Shown here: positions 41,302 through 42,955 of the stretch, in pieces
Layout: the number at the start of each line of letters is the position of its first letter
Position numbering within the stretch: position 1 is the stretch's first letter
Assembly: GCF_900156505.1 (NCBI RefSeq)
Contig: NZ_FTPR01000002.1
Coordinates: 310,001 to 374,000 of the forward strand
DNA: 64,000 nucleotides
Source of the DNA: Yoonia rosea
Lineage (GTDB): Bacteria > Pseudomonadota > Alphaproteobacteria > Rhodobacterales > Rhodobacteraceae
Direction: 5' to 3'
Notes under the pieces: generated by a model
The model's database searches: none
Told to the model about the DNA's origin: nothing
What the model saw: the letters and a program-made list of their open reading frames with translations, nothing else
Program-made: the position numbers and the translations under genes

Positions 41302-42201
41302 ATGACCGAAGTCACCACCCATCAGGCCGAGGATGATGCCCGCAATGAGGCCATCCTGATCTACGTTGACGGACAGATTGTCCCGAAAGCCCAGGCCACT
41401 GTCAGCGTCTACGACAGCGGCTTTATGCTGGGTGATGGGGTTTGGGAAGGGCTGCGGCTTTATGATGGCAAATGGGCCTTCATGGATGAGCATCTGGACC
41501 GGCTTTTTGAGGCGGCAAAGGCGATTGATCTCGACATCGGCATGGACCGGAAAGGCGTTGTTTCCGTATTGTTAGAGACACAAAAAGCCAACGGTATGAC
41601 GACAGACGCCCATGCGCGGCTGATGGTGACCCGTGGGGTAAAGGTGCGCCCTTTCCAACACCCCAGCCTGTCGCAATCAGGGCCTACTTTTGTGATCATC
41701 ATGGAACATTCGCGCCCGAAAATCCCGCGCCCGATTACGCTTGCCACGGTTCCCCACCAGCGCGGCCTGCCGATGACGCAGGATCCGAAACTGAACAGCC
41801 ACTCGAAACTCAACTGCATTCTCGCCTGTATCGCTGCGCAGAAGGCAGGGGCAGATGAGGCGCTGATGCTCGACGTGCATGGTTTTGTGAACACGACAAA
41901 CGCCTGTAACTTCTTTATCGTCAAAAAGGGCGCGGTCTGGACCAGCACGGGTGACTATTGCATGAACGGCATTACCCGCCAGAAGGTGATCGACCTGTGC
42001 CGTGCCAACGACATTCCGGTGTTCGAGCGCAACTACAGCCTCGTCGACACTTACGCGGCCGATGAGGCGTTTCTCACAGGCACCTTCGGCGCGCAAACGC
42101 CCGTCAGCAGCATTGATGGCCGCATCATAGGTACCGGCGAACTGGGTCCAATAACCGCACGTTTGCGCGCGCTCTACAAGGATTTGGTGGACCGGTCATG
42201 A
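41302..42201 (+). CDS. Class IV (branched-chain/D-amino acid type) PLP aminotransferase
   Basis: A 299-residue fold-type IV PLP enzyme. VYDSGFMLGDGVWEGLRLYDG at the N-terminus (split by the quote limit) is the family signature, SHSKLNCILACIAAQKAG contains the lysine expected to bind PLP, and FVNTTNACNFFIV and ITRQKVIDLCRAN hold the Glu-less variant of the phosphate-binding region. AAGGAG lies at 41289-41294. The substrate is not clear: branched-chain amino acids, D-amino acids or aminodeoxychorismate are all possible for the class. It closely resembles the C-terminal half of the plant proteins called branched-chain aminotransferase-like 1 and 2, whose N-terminal half resembles the next gene. 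Confidence 0.85.
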   Translation: MTEVTTHQAEDDARNEAILIYVDGQIVPKAQATVSVYDSGFMLGDGVWEGLRLYDGKWAFMDEHLDRLFEAAKAIDLDIGMDRKGVVSVLLETQKANGMTTDAHARLMVTRGVKVRPFQHPSLSQSGPTFVIIMEHSRPKIPRPITLATVPHQRGLPMTQDPKLNSHSKLNCILACIAAQKAGADEALMLDVHGFVNTTNACNFFIVKKGAVWTSTGDYCMNGITRQKVIDLCRANDIPVFERNYSLVDTYAADEAFLTGTFGAQTPVSSIDGRIIGTGELGPITARLRALYKDLVDRS

Positions 42202-42210
42202 TGTGTCATC

Positions 42211-42243
42211 TGTATGTACAGGTTGTGTACAGCTTGTGTACGG
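42211..42243 (+). repeat. Three tandem imperfect 11-bp repeats
   Basis: TGTATGTACAG, GTTGTGTACAG and CTTGTGTACGG follow each other without spacing. The shared core is T-x-TGTAC-x-G. They fill the 52-bp gap between the aminotransferase stop and the sulfotransferase-like ATG. If the alternative GTG 42203 start were used they would be translated, but the family N-terminus begins after them. Confidence 0.6.
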
Positions 42244-42253
42244 GATGTGGCCG

Positions 42254-42955
42254 ATGAGAATCGCCATGTGGTCCGGTCCCCGCAATCTCTCGACCGCGAT
42301 GATGTACGCCTTTGGCAACCGTGCGGATTTCGCCGTCTGGGATGAACCATTCTATGCTCCCTACCTGAAAGCAACCGGCGCAAACCACCCGATGCGGGAT
42401 GAGATCATCGCCGGACACGAGACGGACCCGATAATTGTTGCACAGCGCTGTTTAGACACTATTCCTGACGATAAGCCGCATTTCTACATGAAGCATATGC
42501 CGCATCACATGATTACGGGCTTCCCGCTGGATTGGGCTCGGGATTGCATCAATATCCACCTCATCCGCCACCCCGCCCGCGTGATCGCAAGCTACGGTGC
42601 GAAGATGGATCATATGAGCTTGGAAGATATCGGTTTTCCGCAACAGACCGCCCTTTTTGAAAAGCTCGGCGGCATCGTCATCGACAGCGCCGACATTCGC
42701 GCAGACCCCGAACGAATGCTACGGAAACTCTGTGATGCCATAGACTTAGCCTTTGATTCGGCAATGCTACATTGGCCTATCGGTCCGCGTTCAGAAGATG
42801 GGATCTGGGCTGCGCATTGGTATAATGCCGTCCACGAAAGCACCGGCTTTGCAGGGGCAGAGGGGGATTTGCCGGAAATTGAGACGGCCTACTCACCAAT
42901 ACTAAAGGAAGCTGAGTTACACTATGAAGGCTTGATAGAACGGAAATTGACCTAA
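42254..42955 (+). CDS. Sulfotransferase-like P-loop protein paired with the aminotransferase
   Basis: A 233-residue protein with a sulfotransferase-type nucleotide fold. IAMWSGPRNLSTAMMYAFGN at the start is the modified 5'-phosphosulfate loop, and FYMKHMPHHM and INIHLIRHPARVIASYGAK match the 3'-phosphate-binding segment (R-x-P...S). AMLHWPIGPRSEDGIWAAHW and VHESTGFAG are diagnostic of the small subgroup found fused to a class IV aminotransferase in plants. ATG 42254 matches that subgroup's start; GTG 42203 is possible. Whether it transfers sulfate, or uses the fold for another purpose, is unknown. The aminotransferase is its immediate upstream neighbour. Confidence 0.75.
   Translation: MRIAMWSGPRNLSTAMMYAFGNRADFAVWDEPFYAPYLKATGANHPMRDEIIAGHETDPIIVAQRCLDTIPDDKPHFYMKHMPHHMITGFPLDWARDCINIHLIRHPARVIASYGAKMDHMSLEDIGFPQQTALFEKLGGIVIDSADIRADPERMLRKLCDAIDLAFDSAMLHWPIGPRSEDGIWAAHWYNAVHESTGFAGAEGDLPEIETAYSPILKEAELHYEGLIERKLT

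Follow-up and report, generated by a model that had tools for sequence, protein, structure and literature searches.

A class IV aminotransferase-like protein lacking the catalytic lysine is coupled to a PF19798 sulfotransferase in Pseudomonadota

The transaminases IlvE, PRK08320 and D-AAT share their fold, the phosphate cup and the G-I-T-R and T-G-T blocks with the class IV aminotransferase-like protein considered in this work (AT), but they carry a catalytic lysine and a glutamate facing the pyridine ring, both of which are replaced in all 161 distinct members of the AT group. The roles of the residues were assigned from those of IlvE, including the hydrogen bonding of E193 to the pyridine nitrogen, this residue being matched to position 198 of AT. 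The best solved relative of AT (E 9e-90) has been deposited as 'Aminotransferase, class 4' under the PDB codes 7z79 and 9j32, with Variovorax paradoxus as its presumable source. The 7z79 entry contains the same L-N-S-H-S motif as AT, with Asn at the lysine position, whereas 9j32, unlike AT, has Lys there and is apparently an engineered form. Neither of these two entries, nor any class IV protein devoid of the lysine, was the subject of a paper among the open-licence articles listed. With regard to the partner protein, a sulfotransferase (ST), the domains of CurM (4gbm) and OLS (4gox) are the sole solved proteins clearly matched by its profile, 4gbm being also its best fold match. These domains form part of polyketide synthases and act on carrier-bound beta-hydroxyacyl chains, CurM sulfating the beta-hydroxyl to drive elimination, whereas ST is free-standing and is accompanied by a class IV partner.

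The plant proteins known as branched-chain aminotransferase-like 1 and 2 presumably combine the same two domain families as the pair, as was proposed in a sequence-only reading of the locus, and no paper naming the Arabidopsis loci At3g05190 or At5g27410 was found in the open-licence literature. PF19798, the family of ST, is one of the nine profiles employed in a plant study (PMC12506393) and is listed as a domain in a review (PMC11625862), and a maize protein with an aminotran_4 domain is called BCAT-like1 (PMC8670197). A Chlamydomonas 'D-amino acid aminotransferase-like' gene is mentioned in another study among acetate-requiring mutants and GreenCut2 proteins (PMC8448359), but it is not used as evidence here because a different plant enzyme may go by that name. 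The moss HIP6 report does not bear on this protein (PMC4867686). A further known system is constituted by the bacterial L-hydroxyproline clusters, which comprise LhpI/AcnX, LhpJ, a transporter and reductases, AcnX being responsible for the dehydration of cis-3-hydroxy-L-proline to 1-pyrroline-2-carboxylate (PMC5144071). AcnX, an ABC transporter and proline-type reductases are also found beside some ATs of a clade designated B below, but the term 'aminotransferase' is absent from the main text of that source, and the pair analysed here is not located in such a cluster.

The pair was studied in a window of 64,000 nucleotides, that is, the whole stretch of Yoonia rosea DNA that was analysed, and its features are collected in Table 1. 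Both genes announced by the sequence-only reading were recovered as open reading frames, separated by 52 bp and lying on the same strand. Against Pfam, AT scored 136.4 bits with Aminotran_4 (cut-off 28.5) and ST scored 311.8 bits with PF19798 (Sulfotransfer_5; cut-off 23.2), in keeping with the earlier description of the second gene as sulfotransferase-like. In a scan of NCBIfam, ST had zero matches and AT stayed below the cut-off for all the 18 models that it matched, the IlvE, D-AAT and PabC equivalogs included; the nearest models were those of branched-chain and D-amino-acid transaminases, headed by a branched-chain transaminase at 234.6 bits against a cut-off of 363. The blocks said to be shared with the plant proteins were present as W-S-G-P-R-N-L-S-T and D-G-x-W-A in ST and as G-D-G-V-W-E-G-L-R in AT, with the exception of the leading I of the late ST block, which reads R-S-E-D-G-I-W-A in the window. 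Among close relatives, AT is much better conserved than ST (98% versus 81% in G006).

Table 1. Position of the two genes and of their conserved elements in the window
Feature	Position	Strand	Basis
AT, class IV aminotransferase-like, 299 aa, without PLP-binding lysine	41302..42201	+	ORF, Pfam match, alignment
AT codons 164-168 (L-N-S-H-S), Asn165 at the Schiff-base lysine position	41791..41805	+	alignment with 5mqz, 7z79 and 9j32
ST, PF19798 sulfotransferase, 233 aa	42254..42955	+	ORF, Pfam match, model, nearest solved relative CurM
ST codons 6-14 (W-S-G-P-R-N-L-S-T), predicted 5'-phosphosulfate-binding loop	42269..42295	+	conservation; role as in PAPS sulfotransferases
ST codon 31 (Glu in D-E-P-F-Y), candidate catalytic base	42344..42346	+	166/166; putative role, after Stf0/TPST geometry
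ST codons 105-113 (R-x7-S), predicted 3'-phosphate-binding motif	42566..42592	+	conservation; spacing as in PAPS sulfotransferases

The distribution of both proteins was followed in two samples, and all the counts refer to sampled genomes. The first one comprised 398 Pseudomonadota genomes, with AT counted at E 1e-60 or better, and the second one 198 genomes of the window's own family, one per genus, in which a strong ST was defined as E 1e-50 or better and seven genomes with weak ST matches alone were scored as ST-negative. PF19798 was matched in 38 of the 398 genomes (37 strong matches and a weak one at 1.5e-16) and AT was present in 41, including every one of the 37 strong-ST genomes (Fisher p 5e-48); ST was absent from the other four (G260, G285, G318, G372). 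Among the 198 genera, strong ST was detected in 130 and AT in 132, with both proteins in 127, ST alone in three (G513, G587, G589), AT alone in five (G449, G508, G512, G539, G578) and neither of them in 63 (Fisher p 1e-41). Five of the 127 pair genomes (G487, G522, G611, G615, G619) have a sole AT of 47-54% identity placed away from ST, and these may be false pairs. The coupling of ST and AT is strong, about as good as comparative genomics allows. A functional link between the partners, of the kind predicted from the plant fusion and the bacterial adjacency, is supported by this co-occurrence, by adjacency in at least seven families and by the retention of AT even in genomes where it is unlinked. 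Carriage of the pair by phages or viruses was discarded, with 0 cases in phages and no relative confirmed in viral_contigs.

Adjacency was not confined to very close relatives, the outcome that would have counted against the sequence-only reading: AT and ST are neighbours in 28 of the 37 pair genomes of the Pseudomonadota sample, the own family contributing 14 of its 23 and six further families all 14 of theirs. The ATs of the own family are divided into clade A (at least 76% identity), nearly always adjoining ST, and clade B (66-73% identity), nearly always away from it, with adjacency in G377 and G437; in the 198 genera these labels were given by identity bands, supported by a phylogeny of 54 selected ATs, where clades A and B are supported sister groups. 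Clade A is present in 85 genera, all of them with ST, clade B in 40 and a more distant AT (47-59%) in seven. When the 113 genera without clade A are considered, clade B is found in 35 of the 45 that are ST-positive versus 5 of the 68 that are ST-negative (p 6e-15). On a tree of ST (65 chosen rows), genomes with A and B partners are interspersed, as are those with adjacent and unlinked AT, and the supported branches require at least eight changes for each AT label; shuffling of the labels gave equal clustering in 166 of 500 trials for B and in 14 of 500 for A. ST thus stayed while its AT partner was swapped, often to another site of the genome, and such an exchange with retention of ST argues for need rather than linkage.

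At the level of the active site, AT seems to have lost the residue that defines the enzymes after which it is named. In a phmmer alignment with the transaminase 5mqz, the column of the catalytic lysine is occupied by Asn165 of AT, which stands 20 residues upstream of the D-E-A block, exactly as the catalytic lysine does in E. coli PabC and 5mqz. In a MAFFT alignment, owing to a single additional residue in IlvE, its lysine lies one column to the left of Asn165, whereas those of PabC and an own-genome protein fall elsewhere; the assignment of the lysine column to Asn165 is not beyond doubt by alignment alone. All 161 distinct AT sequences have Asn at position 165, and the same invariance (161/161 each) is displayed by His167, Ser168 and the phosphate-binding residues R67 and T225. 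Position 198 is Thr in 146 of these sequences and Ser in the other 15; Glu occupies the equivalent position in IlvE and PabC of E. coli and in the three remaining class IV proteins encoded by the own genome. An aminotransferase reaction, which the name used for this gene in the sequence-only reading would imply, is not supported in view of the replacement of both the PLP lysine and the pyridine-facing Glu. In short, AT retains the fold and the profile of class IV PLP aminotransferases and lacks their Schiff-base lysine and their pyridine-nitrogen Glu. Since the site is invariant though altered, it fits a working site better than decay, and it is kept just as strictly in relatives without ST. 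Judging from the sequences, the name 'aminotransferase' is probably wrong for AT and a function other than transamination is likely. The family represents a protein group labelled as aminotransferase without the enzyme-defining residue, whose altered site is nevertheless strictly kept and which is tied to a sulfotransferase.

PAPS sulfotransferases possess a 5'-phosphosulfate loop and an R-x7-S motif for the 3'-phosphate. In ST, residues S7, G8, P9, R10, N11, S13 and T14, together with E31, K80, R105, S113, D182, G183 and W185, are each conserved in 166 of 166 distinct sequences. The predicted structure of ST (mean pLDDT 93.9) has the CurM sulfotransferase 4gbm as its top Foldseek match (E 2.5e-5, TM 0.51, rmsd 9.0), followed by tyrosylprotein sulfotransferases with PAP and, from rank 15, by adenylate kinases, which are also P-loop proteins. 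Among solved proteins, the ST profile produced meaningful E-values for 4gbm and 4gox only (4e-7 and 2e-7), and plain phmmer retrieved 4gox only, at 0.0036. With its motifs intact, ST looks active. The presence of an APS kinase gene in the own genome indicates that PAPS is available; as this gene is found in 184 of the 198 family genomes, PAPS supply does not discriminate and was rejected as a discriminating test. Distant relatives of ST (28-30%) on the Streptomyces plasmid pSALBX2 (L176) and on a Dolichospermum plasmid (L175) have non-ribosomal peptide synthetase genes and an adenylyl-sulfate kinase gene as neighbours. Some genomes, among them G106, G264, G357 and G382, also contain a second group of weak PF19798 matches (E from about 1e-7 to 1e-22) that is separate from the pair.

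Various neighbourhoods provide a lead on the substrate. A scan of 20 chosen of the 161 pair neighbours in other families returned mostly mixed housekeeping genes (moaA-type, cobS, lipoamide dehydrogenase, alpha/beta hydrolase and others), and the idea of a conserved wider operon around the pair was abandoned, none being seen across families. Hydroxyproline or sulfatase markers within 8 kb were present in 0 of 71 long AT+ST loci, and there was none near the window pair, so that the hint of a substrate comes from loci with the genes apart only. In loci with AT only, which were hand-picked from the search matches and whose fractions are not population estimates, an ABC ATPase was located within 8 kb of AT in 26 of 35 long loci without ST, 19 of these 26 ATPases being at least 45% identical to the query, the ATPase of a Mameliella amino-acid transporter; this compares with 3 of 71 pair loci, all of them with less than 30% identity to the Mameliella protein. 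Single lysine-less ATs are accompanied by an amino-acid ABC transporter, a CLC chloride channel and a ProC-type reductase in L167, L178, L261 and L263, three of which are on plasmids, and L174 has a short chloride-channel fragment and no ProC. A MmgE/PrpD gene lies by a single AT in L168, L169, L177, L260 and L262, and weakly in L234.

AcnX exceeds its cut-off in 31 of the 198 genera, 18 of the 132 with AT and 13 of the 66 without it; therefore, its presence alone shows no association with AT. In six of the 18 genera with both (G488, G509, G556, G562, G571, G578), AcnX lies within 9 kb of AT, and in the other 12 no linkage was seen, the two genes being mostly on different contigs. The six linked genera all belong to clade B (6 of 10 clade-B genera versus 0 of 8 others) and five of them have ST; the 9 kb limit and the marker set were chosen after the first cases, so that the binomial value of 1.5e-10 is no more than a rough guide. 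AcnX is directly beside AT in L303 and L304 (AcnX-AT) and in L305 (ABC-AT-AcnX), and L306 and L307 contain in addition an ABC transporter and a ProC-type gene. Five AT-linked AcnX genes scanned at full length were all above the NCBIfam cut-off of 700 bits, and the large domain alone was scanned in L305, with 672 bits. The own genome has neither AcnX (E 8e-4) nor an enolase-type cis-3-hydroxyproline dehydratase over the cut-off. An enolase-family gene of a Yoonia plasmid was rejected as such a dehydratase (48 bits versus a cut-off of 500). Enolase-type dehydratases over the cut-off were found in four of 164 genera searched, in 0 of the four near AT or ST, and their link with ST is restricted to L114 (Oceanibium sediminis), where a dehydratase of 715.6 bits (cut-off 500) is followed 18 bp later by ST; this locus also has a convergent sulfatase and an ABC transporter, and AT is absent from the 12.7 kb stretch.

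Sulfatases appear in a few of these contexts. On a Mameliella alba plasmid the order is ABC-AT-sulfatase-DapA family-FAD oxidoreductase-SDR-ALDH, with the sulfatase overlapping the AT gene, and a sulfatase is also found in the AT/AcnX cluster of G509. The Mameliella-type sulfatase operon exists as well without AT, in a genome without ST (G463, L298). As a constant third partner the sulfatase was discarded, being present at E 1e-130 in 33 of the 198 genera, with the closest one (G463, 79%) in a genome without AT and ST. An ABC transporter, the sulfatase, a DapA-family gene, a D-amino-acid dehydrogenase-like gene, SDR and ALDH are gathered in one operon in L298 (G463:C98) and in L266 (Mameliella alba plasmid pKUB257), the L298 operon continuing with additional SDR genes and a member of the proline racemase family. 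The Mameliella sulfatase is above the TIGR03417 choline-sulfatase cut-off. This operon is a candidate pathway for sulfated hydroxyproline. Taken as a lead, the AcnX neighbours point to cis-3-hydroxyproline and ST and the few sulfatases to sulfate, and the amino-acid-type substrate put forward by the sequence-only reading is considered probable.

To accommodate these observations, we tentatively favor a two-protein module for a sulfated amino acid of the 3-hydroxyproline type, formed by an ST of the CurM/TPST fold and a repurposed, non-aminotransferase AT. AT and ST would act as one functional unit on a shared substrate, a small cyclic hydroxy-amino acid, to whose hydroxyl ST would transfer sulfate from PAPS. 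The repurposed class IV protein, which with no lysine Schiff base would not be an ordinary aminotransferase, might use the carboxylate and phosphate pocket that it has kept to bind either the same compound or the following intermediate, and carry out a step other than transamination, be it isomerisation, elimination or release. Single AT relatives would have a matching role in uptake-and-degradation operons with an amino-acid ABC transporter, some of them with the cis-3-hydroxyproline dehydratase and a few with a sulfatase. Computation shows that the pair is coupled, that the ST motifs are intact and that the lysine has been lost; we infer the substrate class, the order of the steps and the chemistry of AT, and sulfated 3-hydroxyproline is itself hypothetical in these bacteria. 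Some neighbourhoods of relatives hint at hydroxylated-proline chemistry instead of ordinary amino-group transfer. The absence of the markers from the 71 pair loci, the lack of both dehydratases over the cut-off in the own genome and the restriction of the dehydratase-ST link to a single locus speak against this substrate, and the own-genome result slightly reduces the weight given to the whole reading.

AT might alternatively be a pseudoenzyme with no catalytic role, binding either a ligand or ST and serving to control or stabilise the latter, a possibility for which serine palmitoyltransferase, with lysine-less PLP-fold subunits acting as non-catalytic partners, offers a precedent. The lost lysine, the change of Glu to Thr or Ser, the near-obligate co-occurrence with ST and the presumed plant fusion are compatible with it, but N165, H167 and S168 are kept in all 161 sequences and a structural subunit of ST would be out of place in the AT loci without ST that have an ABC ATPase, so that we regard this role as doubtful.

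Somewhat less probable is that sulfation assists an elimination: ST would equip a beta-hydroxyl with sulfate as a leaving group, and AT, free of the lysine, would eliminate this sulfate with the help of non-covalent PMP or PLP. Serine-O-sulfate causes suicide inactivation of normal transaminases, and the loss of the lysine would protect AT from this fate. The precedent of CurM, the nearest solved relative of ST, and the Thr or Ser that replaces Glu at the pyridine nitrogen are in agreement with this route, but cofactor binding by AT is hypothetical, secondary amines are unable to form a normal aldimine and the sulfatases near some loci suggest hydrolysis of the sulfate instead. Also in its favor, the dehydration of cis-3-hydroxyproline (PMC5144071), itself a beta-hydroxy amino acid, is encoded in the neighbourhood of AT in six genera. 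A specific form of the preferred module along these lines, in which the PAPS sulfotransferase makes the beta-hydroxyl sulfate and the lysine-free class IV protein, relying on no cofactor or on PLP/PMP bound non-covalently, brings an elimination or a ring reaction of a 3-hydroxyproline-type amino acid to its end, is likewise held to be unlikely; sulfation of the beta-hydroxyl followed by lysine-free chemistry would fit, by analogy, a CurM-like ancestry. If true, this form would imply a PLP-fold chemistry without lysine, conserved in bacteria and possibly maintained as a fusion in plants. A possible action of PAPS on 2-aminoacrylate was also considered (PMC7990286).

Even less weight is given to the view of the sequence-only reading, an ordinary transaminase and a sulfotransferase performing two steps on one amino-acid-derived substrate, for which K163 or K169 would have to serve PLP as a displaced lysine. 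The class IV fold with its Pfam score, the retention of the phosphate-binding residues and the transaminase identity of the nearest NCBIfam models, all of them below the cut-off, speak for it, but neither candidate is constant: among 149 distinct sequences, 137 have K, 11 have R and one has M at position 163, 139 have K and 10 have R at position 169, and no lysine is 99% conserved anywhere in the family.

Joint inheritance by linkage without shared function is very improbable, for although most pairs are adjacent (AT lies in the same stretch in 54 of the best 80 of 579 confirmed ST relatives in genome_contigs and is absent from it in 26), both genes are kept when far apart, as in the 35 ST-positive genera of clade B, in almost none of which they are linked, and three gene arrangements are seen, which led to the rejection of linkage alone as the cause of the pairing. 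In the bacterial loci listed, AT and ST are separate genes, mostly in the order AT then ST, with the reverse order in three genomes (L033, L153, L251) and divergent orientation in Alteromonas oceani (L108). In L251 (G437) and L153 (G071), ST is directly 5' of AT, the two genes overlapping by 1 base in the former and standing a few bases apart in the latter, which is the domain order given for the plant fusion by the sequence-only reading.
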